38,776 bases of DNA. It comes from Pirellulaceae bacterium. GTDB lineage: Bacteria; Planctomycetota; Planctomycetia; Pirellulales; Pirellulaceae. Of the stretch, positions 26,311 through 31,332 are shown piece after piece. Every line of letters starts with the position of its first letter. Positions within the stretch are counted from its first letter, which is position 1. The position numbers were made by a program, and so were the translations under genes. The notes under the pieces are model-generated. The model saw nothing but the letters and a program-made list of their open reading frames with translations. It made no database searches and was not told the DNA's origin. The DNA lies in NCBI GenBank assembly GCA_011087765.1, contig JAALLA010000019.1:1-38776 (forward strand), in the 5' to 3' direction.

Positions 26311-26615
26311 AGATCGATTTTGACCTGTGTGGCAATCCCATCCGTTTTTTTGAGTTGTTTCTTGTGCCCGGTGGAGTGCTTAAGGGAGTAATAAACGCGC
26401 CGTCGATGGTTACATGGGGAGAATTTTTTCCGCGATTTCATGTAAATATTTCGTTGGATTTTTAAAAATGCCCCAAAGATTGACTCTGCGAGTGGTTTCC
26501 GTTGTTCAATTCGGCATGGTTGCCGGAATCGGGCCAATCGACGAAACTATAGAACAGTTAATTAATCCGAAAAACAATCCAACTCGCTGAGTTGGCCAGA
26601 CTGATCCGCGAGCTA
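26311..26615. other. Divergent intergenic region, glgX / purM
   Basis: About 300 nt with no supported gene. It holds the two divergent promoters. A weak -35-like TTGACT at 26479-26484 on the plus strand has no good -10 partner. The open frame extends purM to a TTG at 26592, but the extra residues look non-conserved. Confidence 0.35.
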
Positions 26616-27689
26616 ATGACAGGCGTTTCCTATAAAGATTCCGGCGTTGATCTCGAAGTTTACAACGAGGCGATGAAGCGACTCCCAAAGTTGATGCATC
26701 GGACTTTCTCACCCCGTGTTCGGCAGCTTGATGGCGGGTTCGCCGGGCTGTTCCAACTGGACTTTGAGAGTAAACTTTTTCGACGAAATTATCAGGACCC
26801 AATGTTGGTTGCGTGCACTGACGGTGTGGGGACCAAGTTAAAATTGGCGCAGATGCTTAATCGTCATCGAACGGTGGGAATCGATTTGGTGGCGATGTGC
26901 GTTAATGACGCGATTTGCTGCGGAGCGGAGCCACTGTTTTTCTTAGATTATGTGGCGATGTCCCACGATGATCCGGTTGCTCTTGAGCAAATCGTAAGCG
27001 GGATCAGTGATGGCTGTCTGGCTGCCGACTGCGCGCTATTAGGGGGAGAGACTGCGATTATGCCCGATCTCTATCAGCCCGGAGATTATGACCTGGCTGG
27101 TTTTTGCGTCGGGGTGGTTGAGCGAAACCATGTAATTGACGGCCACGCAATTGCCGATGGGGACGTTGTGATTGGCGTTGCCTCGAGTGGCGTGCATTCC
27201 AATGGTTTCAGCCTCGTTCGCAAAATTGCATTCGATGTTGGAAACAAAAAACCAGAAGATTTAATGGAAGGTACGGATCGCTCAATCGGAGATGTGTTAA
27301 TTGAGCCGACCTTGATTTATACCAAAGCGATTCGAGATGTGTTGAGTCACTACAAAGTCAAAAACGTTGTCCACGGAATCGCGCACATTACCGGAGGTGG
27401 TCTCGAGGAGAATATCGAGCGGATCACGCCTGAAGGGCTGGCGATTGATATTGATGGTCAAGCCTGGGAACGTCCTCCTGTTTTTGATTGGCTTCAAAAA
27501 CTTGGAAAAGTAGAGACCGAAGAAATGTTCCGCGTGTTCAATATGGGCGTTGGTTTGGCAATGATCGTAAGTCCCTATTATGCCGAATCGATTCAGCGAT
27601 CATTGAGTAAGCACGGGCACGAAAATTGGTTGATCGGTACGGTTAAAACGGGCGAGAAGCGAGTTACCGTTCACGACAAAACGTTGTAG
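26616..27689 (+). CDS. purM: Phosphoribosylformylglycinamidine cyclo-ligase
   Basis: PurM (AIR synthetase) closes the imidazole ring in purine synthesis. The protein starts [20 protein letters not shown], the normal N-terminus, at the ATG 26616, giving 357 residues. It has [11 protein letters not shown] (ATP-binding), [38 protein letters not shown] and [13 protein letters not shown], all family signatures. It is monocistronic, and its stop is 90 nt from the convergent DsbD-like gene end. Confidence 0.96.
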
Positions 27690-27779: not shown

Positions 27780-30368
27780 TTAATTAGAAGCTTGGATAAC
27801 TTCTTGAATTCTATCGAGAATTTTCAATGCCTCGTCTGGACCGAAGAGAGTATCGATCATGATCGCCGGCTCTTCCGGGTAGTTCGGTGGGTAGATCAAG
27901 TTAACGGGAATAATAGAGCGATTAACCCGCAACAAATCCAAAGCTATATCAGGTCTTCGTTTGGTATCGTCAACTGAAATGAATTCAAAGTTTAGTTCTT
28001 TTAATTTCGCGAGAACCCGATCGTCCGAAAAGACACGCTTTTCGTTTACTTTACAAGTCGGTCACCAATCGGCTGTGTAGTCGACCCAAATGGGGCGGCC
28101 ATTATTCTTTAACGCGTATTCGACTTTGCCCGGGTTCCATTCTTGCCAACCTAATCCAGCTACGTTGTGGGCTCCTGCTGAAGTCAGGTTTTTAGATTCT
28201 TCGACAGCTCCGTAGCACATCCAAATACCGATCGAAGCAATTATCAGAGGCATGAGGTAGCCGAAGGTCAATCGCTTTGAGAGCTTTACACTCGCCTCCC
28301 CCCATTGTCCGTAGCAGTAGGCGGCAAGCGCGATGACTACGAGTGCCATGACAAGCCAGCTTAGGCCGCCAACTCCGGTCTGTCCGCCAAAAGCCTGCAT
28401 GAAAAATGCGACCGTTGCAAAAAGAGTAAACGCCATCGTGGCCTTGAAGGTCTCCATCCAAGGCCCCGGTTTGGGGAGTTTGTAAATGAGGGCGGGAAAG
28501 AATGAGAGCACCAGGTAAGGGGATGAAATTCCTAACGCGAAAACGGTGAAAAGGAACATCGAAGGCAGCGGGTCCTGAGCAAGCGTGTAGCTCATCGCAG
28601 CGCCTAAAAATGGACCTGAACAAGGTGTGGCAATTAAAGTGGTGAGCACTCCGGAAAAAAAGGATCCGGTGTAACCTTTTTTCTGGCCACCGTCGACGCC
28701 GGAAAGAGATGTTCCAATTTCAAAAACACCTGCCATGTTTAATCCCAGGAGGAAGAGCAGGACGATAATGCCACATACAAAATAAGGGTTACCCATCTGG
28801 GCTCCCCAGTTAATCGCCTCGCCAAACGATAGCTTGACGAACAGAACAGCGCCCCCCAGGATCCACATGGAGACGACCAGTCCAAACGCGAAGGCGATAC
28901 CGTGTTTTCGGATTTTTGCAGGTTCGCTTCCAGCCTGCATCACAAAGCCCATCACTTTTAATCCGAGGACCGGGAAGACGCAAGGCATTAGATTGAGCAG
29001 CATCCCGCCAAAAAACGCTCCCAAAAGTGCGGTAATGAAGGTAGTTTTTTCAAGTGAGCTGCTGCCTCCTGAGCCGACGGGGAATTCATCGAGATCATCA
29101 AATAGGATGATTTTTTGTTTTTCGTTTGGGTCATAAAGGCCCTTCATGATTTCAATTTGTTCCGGCGAATCGGCAAGCAGAGCAACGGCTTCGTCTTCTC
29201 CTTCATTTTCATCGTCAACACCATTGTCAGCCGGGATTGAGCCACCTGAGATTCCATGCGGCTTATTCGCGTTTTCTGCGGATTCGTAGGTTGAGTCAGT
29301 CCAGATGAGTGGAGCCGCGGCGGCTTTGCCGAGATTGATCAGAGCGGAAAATGCGATTCCCGTGGGCGGATCACAATGGGTTTCGTCACAGGTTTGGAGG
29401 CCGATAATTCCGTTAAATTGAAAAGGTTGATTTTTCTTGGCATCGCGTGGAATGCTAATAAAGAAATCAAGCGTGACAGGTTCGTAATAAGCGAAAACCG
29501 GTTCTCCAAAAGCCTCTCCAGCTTCCGGCTCTGCTGATAGTTTCGGCCCCACAACATTCCAGCTATTGGTTTGGGTGAGGCCAAGGATCGTTGATTTGAT
29601 TTGTGTTTTTTCTAGAGAGTACGAATAGACGTGCCAGTCGATCTCTGGCGTGATTGTAATTTCCAAGCGGGCAACATCGCCTGGTCGGAGCGGTTTGTCG
29701 GTCCCCGAGTTTCGAATGATCTGCCCGCGAATTTCCGCATGCGCTCCGCGAACTTTTTGATCTTCAATTTTCAGTTTTGGCTGTATGAAATCGGGCGTAA
29801 TGGCGAGAGCGTCACTAACGCCGCCGAACTTGCTTTCAAGGTTGTATTCGAAAGGCTTGCAACTCCCATTTGTTTCACAGGCTTGCCCATTGATAACCAA
29901 ATTAATTACTAATTTGTCTGGATTGATTTCAGATGCGATTTCAAATGGAGCAGACCAAGACACGCTGTTTTCAAATTCTTCACAAGGATCGTCGAATCCT
30001 TCTTCAGTGACGATGTGCGGTTCTCTGTCCGGTCGGAATTTCCCCAGTAATTTGAAGTCATCCGATTCACCCACATTAATGTTCGTGGGAATGGGGCCGT
30101 TGGTGTCTTTCATTGAAAAGACATGCCAATTTGGAATGATATCGGCAGTGACTTTTAGAATCCCCTGACGAGTTCCCGTCAGTATTTGAAAGCTGGTGGT
30201 GGCTGAAACTGGGTCGCCTGACTGGATGTCGCCAAATTGATCGAGTTGATCTTGCAGGAAGAGGCCTTGTTCTTGCCCTTGGCAGGAGAGAGGCTTTCCG
30301 AAGTCTCCCAGGACAAGTGTAAAAAGTGCGAAGCAGAGAATGTAGTGACGGTTCAATAGTGACTGCAT
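27780..30368 (-). CDS. DsbD-like thiol:disulfide interchange protein, predicted selenoprotein (in-frame TGA = Sec769)
   Basis: DsbD carries electrons across the inner membrane to periplasmic thiols. After a signal peptide come two DsbD-alpha-like domains (cysteines 164/170 and 327/332), then the eight-helix DsbD-beta domain with NLMPCVFP (C463) and IATPCSGP (C583), then a C-terminal thioredoxin fold. The frame has a TGA at 28062-28064 inside YTADW-x-PTCK, exactly at the first cysteine of the CxxC motif. Beyond it, 93 codons without interruption encode VNEKRVFSDDRV, a cis-proline strand SIIPVNLIY (P821) and a final helix, ending in TAA. Reading TGA as selenocysteine gives 862 residues with a U769-x-x-C772 site. 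A hairpin follows the TGA. The alternative is a recent nonsense mutation. The gene begins 292 nt after the companion alpha-domain gene. Confidence 0.85.
28017..28061 (-). promoter_or_regulatory. Candidate bacterial SECIS element
   Basis: On the minus strand, 17 nt after the TGA, CGAAAAG and CTTTTCG form a perfect 7-bp stem (28044-28038 with 28032-28026) closed by the loop CGTGT. CCGA directly after the TGA can pair with TCGG at 28020-28017 as an outer helix. The loop begins 24 nt after the TGA and has G at its second position, which fits the loose bacterial SECIS rules. The element lies in coding sequence, as it does in bacteria. SelB binding is inferred. Confidence 0.65.
28062..28064 (-). 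other. In-frame TGA, predicted selenocysteine codon
   Basis: TGA replaces the codon for the N-terminal (nucleophilic) cysteine of the thioredoxin-type CxxC in the DsbD-like protein. The partner cysteine codon TGT is kept three codons later. Conventional gene calling ends the protein here at 768 residues, in the middle of the thioredoxin domain. Confidence 0.8.
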
Positions 30369-30660: not shown

Positions 30661-31332
30661 TCAATTTTTCTTAGGTGTCGCCTTCTTAGGAACCCCCGTT
30701 TTTTTGTCGGTCGGATCAAAAAAGCCAGCGAATTTCGCGGTTGTTTTTTCACGGGAAATTGGCAGGCACGTCGTCTCGTCACATATTTGTCCGTCGATCT
30801 CGACCTTGATCAATAGCTCGTTGGCAGAGATTGTATCGTTTACTTTTATGGGAACAAAAAATTGAACGACTCCAGAGTGCTTCTCAAGTCTCTTGCCAAA
30901 ATCAGGGTCACTCTCAATGATCTTTGGATTTTTATCCGGAGTGAAAGAGCGTTTGCCAGTTAGTGAAAAGTGTGGGGAATTGGCAACCGTAATTTTTGTT
31001 TTCGAAAATGGTTGAGGTTGCGTCAATGAATAGATATAGCTCTTGTCGGGCAGTTCGAACTTAACAATCAAATACCCCTGATTCGTTCCTTTTTTCAAAT
31101 GAAATCGAGATGAAAGTCGGAAAGGTTTTTTGACTTCGTCAGTCGCCTTTTCTTGGCTCTGAAGAACTGGACTATCCTGAGTTGTCAGTGTGACGGCTGT
31201 GTATTGAGTTTCAATCGTTTTCGAGGGGAATGATTTGGCTGAGCTGGGTTCACTACTAGGAGTTTGCAAGTTGAATAAGACGATCGCAGTTAACGCGAAA
31301 GCTGTGGGGGATATCAATGATTGAAACCGCAT
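30661..31332 (-). CDS. Exported single-domain DsbD-alpha-like protein
   Basis: This 223-residue protein has an N-terminal hydrophobic segment (LISPTAFALTAIVLFNLQTP) and one domain resembling the N-terminal alpha domain of DsbD. GYLIVKFELPDKSYIYSL and the cysteine pair GQICDETTCLP match the two alpha domains of the neighbouring DsbD-like protein. The C-terminus is lysine-rich. In DsbD the alpha-domain cysteine pair passes electrons to substrates, so this protein may be a soluble or membrane-anchored partner of the selenoprotein encoded next on the same strand. AAGGA lies 8 nt before the ATG. Family assignment is fairly sure, the partnership is inferred. Confidence 0.8.
   Translation of the reverse strand: MRFQSLISPTAFALTAIVLFNLQTPSSEPSSAKSFPSKTIETQYTAVTLTTQDSPVLQSQEKATDEVKKPFRLSSRFHLKKGTNQGYLIVKFELPDKSYIYSLTQPQPFSKTKITVANSPHFSLTGKRSFTPDKNPKIIESDPDFGKRLEKHSGVVQFFVPIKVNDTISANELLIKVEIDGQICDETTCLPISREKTTAKFAGFFDPTDKKTGVPKKATPKKN

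Follow-up and report, generated by a model that had tools for sequence, protein, structure and literature searches.

A DsbD/ScsB-like membrane electron transporter of a Pirellulaceae bacterium with a predicted selenocysteine at its thioredoxin site

The reading frame and the domains of its product

The DNA analysed here (hereafter, the window) is a stretch of 38,776 nucleotides, contig JAALLA010000019.1 of assembly GCA_011087765.1 from a Pirellulaceae bacterium, and its minus strand carries a gene for a DsbD/ScsB-like protein with an in-frame TGA predicted to encode selenocysteine (Sec). The frame begins with an ATG at position 30368 and runs for 768 codons to a TGA at 28064-28062 (28062-28064 on the plus strand); beyond it, the same frame continues for 93 sense codons and closes with a TAA at 27782-27780. 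Read through, the full coding frame (27783-30368), assigned by its Pfam matches, specifies 862 amino acids. The TGA, at residue 769, is the sole stop inside it, and a preliminary description of this locus, made from the sequence alone, was right in stating that the continuation reaches the TAA free of other lesions. When the bases of the tail were shuffled, the 93 codons stayed open in 58 of 20,000 draws.

The read-through product is composed, in order, of a hydrophobic N-terminal helix, two beta domains, a DsbD_TM membrane domain and a thioredoxin domain bearing the site U769-P-T-C772. The helix (residues 2-18; positions 30314-30368, minus strand, as for all features of this gene), modelled at a local confidence (pLDDT) below 50, is a likely signal sequence. 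Two DsbD-alpha-like beta domains follow: the first (residues 54-185; 29814-30209) shows the cysteine (Cys) pair C164-x5-C170 and is defined by the strands of the model, having no Pfam match of its own, and the second (residues 211-345; 29334-29738), with C327-x4-C332, is supported both by the model and by a Pfam DsbD_N match at residues 229-337 (31.9 bits against a cut-off of 25). The membrane domain, DsbD-beta/CcdA-like (residues 444-727; 28188-29039), was recognised through DsbD_TM (PF02683) at residues 447-657, with 58.3 bits against a cut-off of 27.1, and contains C463 and C583, both invariant in all 60 aligned sequences. The DsbD-gamma-like thioredoxin domain (residues 734-862; 27783-28169) is indicated by Pfam, phmmer, the structure model and Foldseek alike; the third Pfam match of the product, Thioredoxin_7, spans the TGA.

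In the phmmer alignment, the first Cys of the E. coli DsbD-gamma motif ADWCVACK coincides with residue 769, so that the TGA indeed stands at the first Cys of the thioredoxin motif, as had been claimed. A structure model built from 60 aligned sequences, with residue 769 modelled as Cys (mean pLDDT 80.6, pTM 0.55), places this residue just ahead of a helix and P821 just ahead of a strand, in a thioredoxin-like manner, and it bears out the terminal helix of the preliminary description at residues 844-861. The "cis-proline strand" of that description corresponds to P821 before a strand, with proline in 55 of the 60 aligned rows; P821 is a likely cis-proline. Folding the gamma domain from its single sequence was uninformative (pLDDT 40). 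In a Foldseek search with the model, the first rank went to 6c29, the N-terminal domain of Proteus mirabilis ScsB (E 5.4e-6, TMt 0.38), and the second to an adhesin (E 4.4e-5), adhesin and pilus beta domains scoring nearly as well as 6c29; ranks 3-5 and several lower ones were DsbD-gamma structures with TMt of 0.72-0.77. The structural match of the modelled gamma domain is thus clear, whereas the match to the ScsB N-terminal domain is suggestive only.

Judged by its three kinds of domain, the predicted product is a member of the DsbD/ScsB superfamily whose gamma domain carries UxxC in place of CxxC. With E. coli DsbD (1uc7, 2fwe, 2fwh, 1vrs) it has in common the gamma fold, the alignment of ADWCxxCK with U769/C772 and the membrane Cys pair; it differs in having Sec for the first Cys and two N-terminal domains, where E. 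coli DsbD has a single one. It scores 116 bits with the NCBIfam DsbD model (PRK00293), below the cut-off of 330. A two-part N-terminal periplasmic region may be shared with ScsB, and the TMt of only 0.38 to 6c29 speaks for a likely kind rather than a close identity. Known ScsB proteins have Cys at the gamma site. The earlier label "DsbD-like" calls for a correction in that two N-terminal beta domains resemble the arrangement of ScsB more than that of E. coli DsbD.

Codon 769 in relatives and the hairpin downstream

Matches across residue 769 were obtained at 110 loci (from a set of 130, some of which are tRNA, selA, selB or selD loci), and after removal of duplicates 97 distinct sequences were left, including that of the window; since, of the 175 relatives confirmed by the named-genome scan, the best 80 were used, these 97 represent a sample weighted toward the window protein. 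Codon 769 was TGA in 27 of them, TGC in 48 and TGT in 22, with no other codon observed. Homologues thus show Cys in 70 and TGA in 27 of the 97 at the very position of interest, and the partner Cys three residues further on was present in 97 of 97. It is this codon comparison, together with the position of the TGA, that underlies the prediction of Sec at residue 769 (28062-28064). Twelve further TGA-flagged matches all had TGA at the same site; two of them repeated contigs already counted, and ten were new. A sweep of the phylum by means of the gamma region gave a match in 169 of 294 genomes, and among the matches listed TGA occurred only in the window and in G205 and G291, whose two loci (L153 and L162, respectively) come from another planctomycete family and have their TGA at the codon-769 site as well.

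In a tree built without the column of residue 769, the Sec forms fell into three groups: the clade of the window, a second planctomycete group and Verrucomicrobiota. The labels Sec and Cys require five changes on this tree, three of them forced by well-supported branches. The count is soft, as the tree came from a quick search that warned of several long branches meeting, and gains are indistinguishable from losses. Three loci were omitted from it: L021 (identical to the window), L059 (a fragment) and L032 (too short). Some members of the second planctomycete group (L141, L143, L145 and L146) have FTGPNU rather than FTADWU as the motif leading up to Sec. The verrucomicrobial DsbD-like genes with TGA at the codon-769 site are L066, L072, L086 and L128.

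The most ordinary explanation of an internal TGA would be a nonsense mutation, with a protein ending at residue 768 and a tail that is merely a relic. TGA is certainly used as a stop in this DNA, closing 7 of the 22 window open reading frames (ORFs) that were chosen from the 47 listed, glgX among them. A pseudogene is nevertheless hard to reconcile with the same-codon TGA in 27 of 97 distinct sequences and in three separate tree groups, as the preliminary description had anticipated when calling a chance hit at this residue unlikely. Nor does the tail behave like a relic. The ratio of nonsynonymous to synonymous substitution rates (dN/dS) was 0.07-0.16 after the TGA versus 0.05-0.065 before it, as measured in six close relatives out of 14, dS being saturated in the eight more distant ones; the somewhat higher values of the tail are probably due in part to a restraint on synonymous change after the TGA. 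Frame decay after the TGA was not seen in these six relatives. The post-TGA frame is, by these comparisons, intact, non-decaying and, where measurable, under purifying selection, and the window frame contains no second internal stop; we consider the pseudogene very improbable. An error of sequencing or assembly hiding a genuine TGC or TGT is conceivable for the window, which comes from a fragmented draft genome of 371 contigs; yet such an error would need to recur at one codon in many separate assemblies, and we rate it as the least probable of all the explanations weighed here.

Downstream of the TGA lies a hairpin resembling a selenocysteine insertion sequence (SECIS). It occupies positions 28026-28044 (minus strand), with a 7-bp stem CGAAAAG/CTTTTCG that begins at the 18th base past the TGA and a loop CGTGT. 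To count such structures, we applied a rule of at least 5 pairs, a loop of 3-6 bases with GT near its start, and a loop start 15-34 bases past the codon. All 27 TGA genes satisfied it, versus 5.7 expected from synonymous shuffles, and so did 4 of 69 Cys genes, versus 3.6 expected (one more Cys locus was too short to be included). When only stems starting at bases 16-19 were counted, 27 of 27 TGA genes qualified versus 3.3 expected, and 1 of 69 Cys genes versus 2.0; in every one of the 27 the stem started 17-19 bases past the TGA and enclosed a GU-containing loop. Ten TGA loci that had not been used in writing the rule all qualified, with about one expected. Since many of the genes are closely related, these counts are not independent draws, and L086 would qualify whatever its synonymous choices because its amino acids force the stem. 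An example from Verrucomicrobiota is TGAAGC-GGTCA-GCTTCA, found in L066 and L128.

Synonymous change is also almost absent from this stretch. Among seven close orthologues, synonymous differences in the 12 codons after the TGA amounted to 4.8%, whereas the median of 782 overlapping segments was 41%, and only four of the 782 were as low, namely codons +1 to +12 and three segments overlapping them. In the clade of the window (13 sequences, 12 of them distinct), 96.4% of stem cells were paired, both bases had changed in two pairs, and covariation in the stem scored higher than in 500 out of 500 shuffles; sliding the stem partner reduced pairing to 34-67%. A scan of the window with Rfam at gathering scores gave no match. 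Overall, these comparisons show a constrained SECIS-like hairpin after the TGA, which is not enriched in Cys genes.

Selenocysteine machinery and the reading of the TGA

The genome of the window encodes what Sec insertion would call for, namely selA (590 bits), selB (369 bits), selD (259 bits) and a tRNA-Sec (67 bits, anticodon TCA, that is, UCA in the tRNA), the full set for which the preliminary description had proposed to search. The selD match occupies the closing part of a 740-aa frame on another contig than the window, and the first half of this frame looks like a dehydrogenase; a tRNA scan of the window itself found none. Across 60 genomes, tRNA-Sec was detected in 24 of 28 with a TGA-DsbD gene versus 16 of 32 others (Fisher p 0.003), and selB over its cut-off in 25 of 28 versus 17 of 32 (p 0.002), p-values that are optimistic on account of the kinship among genomes; the others include two, G006 and G014, without a DsbD gamma match. 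Because tRNA-Ser-like matches pass the own cut-off of the tRNA-Sec family, the threshold was set to 60 bits, as no score fell between 62.2 and 53.5.

Such machinery also bears on the possibility that the whole genome uses TGA for Cys, Trp or Gly, or that a suppressor tRNA decodes it. That the site otherwise holds Cys would fit such a reassignment, while the Sec-specific tRNA with selA, selB and selD, and the SECIS-like hairpin that follows the TGA without being enriched in Cys genes, would not. The seven TGA-terminated window ORFs, glgX included, show TGA to be an ordinary stop here, so the code is not reassigned, and we hold this explanation to be as improbable as the pseudogene.

Sequence comparison shows the TGA/Cys site, an intact tail that is subject to purifying selection, a hairpin under constraint, the genes for Sec insertion and the conservation of the redox Cys residues, and from these we infer Sec insertion itself. 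We are highly confident that the gene encodes an ScsB/DsbD-type transmembrane thiol-disulfide transporter in which the attacking Cys of the gamma domain is replaced by Sec, SelB being recruited by the hairpin and translation proceeding to the TAA. In this process, SelB would deliver Sec-tRNA(UCA) at UGA 769, guided by the hairpin beginning 18 bases past this codon, after which translation would go on as far as the TAA.

Several observations weigh against this reading. The hairpin rule was devised after viewing the first 27 TGA genes, many of which are closely related. The two pairs changed on both sides were reached by 58 of 500 shuffles as well, and as many further pair types occurred in 499 of 500. 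Folding energy was significant (p<=0.05) in just 9 of 27 TGA genes (and in 7 of 69 Cys genes), the window's own hairpin having p = 0.16; folding energy is too weak for single genes, and it is for this reason that position, recurrence, synonymous constraint and covariation were used as evidence of a SECIS. Further, no tRNA-Sec was found, even by a laxer search, in four of the 28 TGA genomes (G004, G022, G023 and G027, which are 71-88% complete), and selB over the cut-off was missing in three (G002, G004 and G023). G004 and G023 thus show neither. These exceptions form the main loose end; we take them to reflect missing contigs.

Beside simple read-through stands a regulated dual product, in which ample selenium would yield the full transporter, whereas termination at the UGA would yield a form without the gamma domain that serves a separate function. 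It is well known that UGA codons for Sec also cause some termination, and the part before the TGA would make a 768-aa protein of two alpha domains plus the membrane domain. No function for the short form is indicated, and the U/C-x-x-C pair of the gamma domain is kept in 97 of 97 sequences, which makes a dual product unlikely in our view, albeit less so than the explanations dismissed above.

Proposed electron path, known selenoproteins and gene neighbourhood

For a transporter read through at codon 769, the order of electron transfer may be pictured by analogy with DsbD and ScsB, the partners being likewise inferred. Electrons would pass from cytoplasmic thioredoxin to the membrane pair C463/C583, from there to U769/C772 of the periplasmic gamma domain, and onward to the Cys pairs in both N-terminal domains, with the free-standing alpha-like protein of the upstream gene as a further possible acceptor, and finally to periplasmic thioredoxin-like or peroxidase partners. 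In Caulobacter, ScsB is described as feeding TlpA and the peroxidase PprX (PMC5403849). Replacing the attacking Cys with Sec is expected to lower the redox potential, to speed up the transfer and to ease upkeep under oxidation. If the Sec form is real, selenium sits where a membrane transporter hands its electrons over to the periplasm.

Proteins with a comparable site have been noted before. We take the domain model cd02953 to be DsbD-gamma. The Global Ocean Sampling survey, with samples that are marine and in some cases non-marine, lists under cd02953 a UxxC family, "Trx-like 2 (Thiol disulfide interchange protein)", of 22 sequences (PMC2398784). It is a domain family drawn from metagenome sequences, for which the survey's entry gives no architecture, host or mechanism (PMC2398784), and its 22 sequences may include relatives of the window gene. 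A 2026 review tabulates a selenoprotein family "Thiol:disulfide interchange protein" (PF13098), which shares with our protein a UxxC thioredoxin-like site and a name that DsbD also bears (PMC13188914), and selenoproteins of this name are listed for Geobacter and Syntrophus (PMC1794560). The same review describes TsoB as a rhodanese/DsbD fusion-like selenoprotein with a UxxxxU motif and two Sec residues (PMC13188914). The DsbD-like region of the TsoB model (NCBIfam NF045694) matches window residues 436-813 with E 7.7e-43, at 146 bits against a cut-off of 805; the window gene has one TGA, and no rhodanese domain was found in its product with Pfam.

The preliminary description knew of no well-described DsbD with Sec at this site. 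This holds for the whole transporter, as no full-length DsbD or ScsB with Sec was found in our searches of open-licence PMC papers, although a relative may be held in supplementary table S9 of an earlier report of planctomycete selenoproteins, where candidates are given (PMC4807772). It does not hold for the site, which the UxxC "thiol disulfide interchange protein" selenoproteins already in print make less new than first thought (PMC2398784, PMC13188914). For the planctomycete phylum as a whole, selenoproteins are little described in the literature that we found. Annotation blind to Sec would truncate the gene at residue 768, and the redox domain would be lost in several planctomycete and some verrucomicrobial genomes.

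How far these cells depend on the Sec form was considered through DsbD_TM searches. In the genome of the window (a draft, 88% complete) the only match was the window gene itself, and of ten genomes of the same genus (91-95% complete) nine had a single match each, while the tenth had none. The match was the Sec gene in G003, G007, G013, G017, G018, G020 and G024 and the Cys gene in G010 and G021; G008, the genome without a match, has the end of a Sec gene at a contig edge. From the single matches, and as far as draft genomes can tell, cells of the window's lineage may have no DsbD-type route other than the Sec form. Two TGA DsbD-like frames per genome were seen in G012 (L034, L137) and in G013 (L033, L138), the second of G013 being a contig-edge tail invisible to the DsbD_TM search. 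It is tempting to suppose, although we do so tentatively and would sooner expect otherwise, that the periplasmic electron supply in this marine Pirellulaceae lineage is selenium-dependent, so that envelope repair and peroxide defence track selenium, with the UGA-terminated form as an off state.

Upstream of the transporter gene, at 30661-31332 on the minus strand, a companion gene encodes a free-standing DsbD-alpha-like protein of 223 aa with the motif CDETTC and 29% identity to residues 52-186 of the DsbD-like protein; neither Pfam nor NCBIfam matched it. A separate alpha-like gene upstream and purM downstream accompany the transporter gene at 12 of 15 loci of relatives. Neither was found at L058, L033 and L034, the available sequence being short on one or both sides in L058 and L033. 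Farther out, where the sequence reaches, lpxI and lpxD were present at 7 of the 15 loci and glgX at 6. The AIR-synthase-like neighbour at 26592-27689 was considered as a candidate for selD and rejected, being purM (422 bits).

Two of the 12 loci with this arrangement, both of the same genus, hold orthologues with Cys, namely L035 in G021 (TGC) and L036 in G010 (TGT), and both genomes have tRNA-Sec and selB over the cut-off (selB is partial in G010). As the two sequences branch within the Sec clade of the tree, such a topology suggests, without proving it, that Sec has changed to Cys in them. By eye, L035 seems to retain a portion of the stem, GAAAA with TTTTC, perhaps the remains of a SECIS, though the folding test gives no support. 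Sec and Cys forms at one locus in one genus offer a natural pair for gauging what selenium gains in trans-membrane thiol transfer.

Finally, we would like to mention that L153 (G205) and L162 (G291) hold, on the same minus strand and at the same locus as their TGA-DsbD gene, a thioredoxin frame with an active-site TGA (VDFWGDGUHACTKMAP), possibly a Sec-thioredoxin near a Sec-DsbD in a different planctomycete family.

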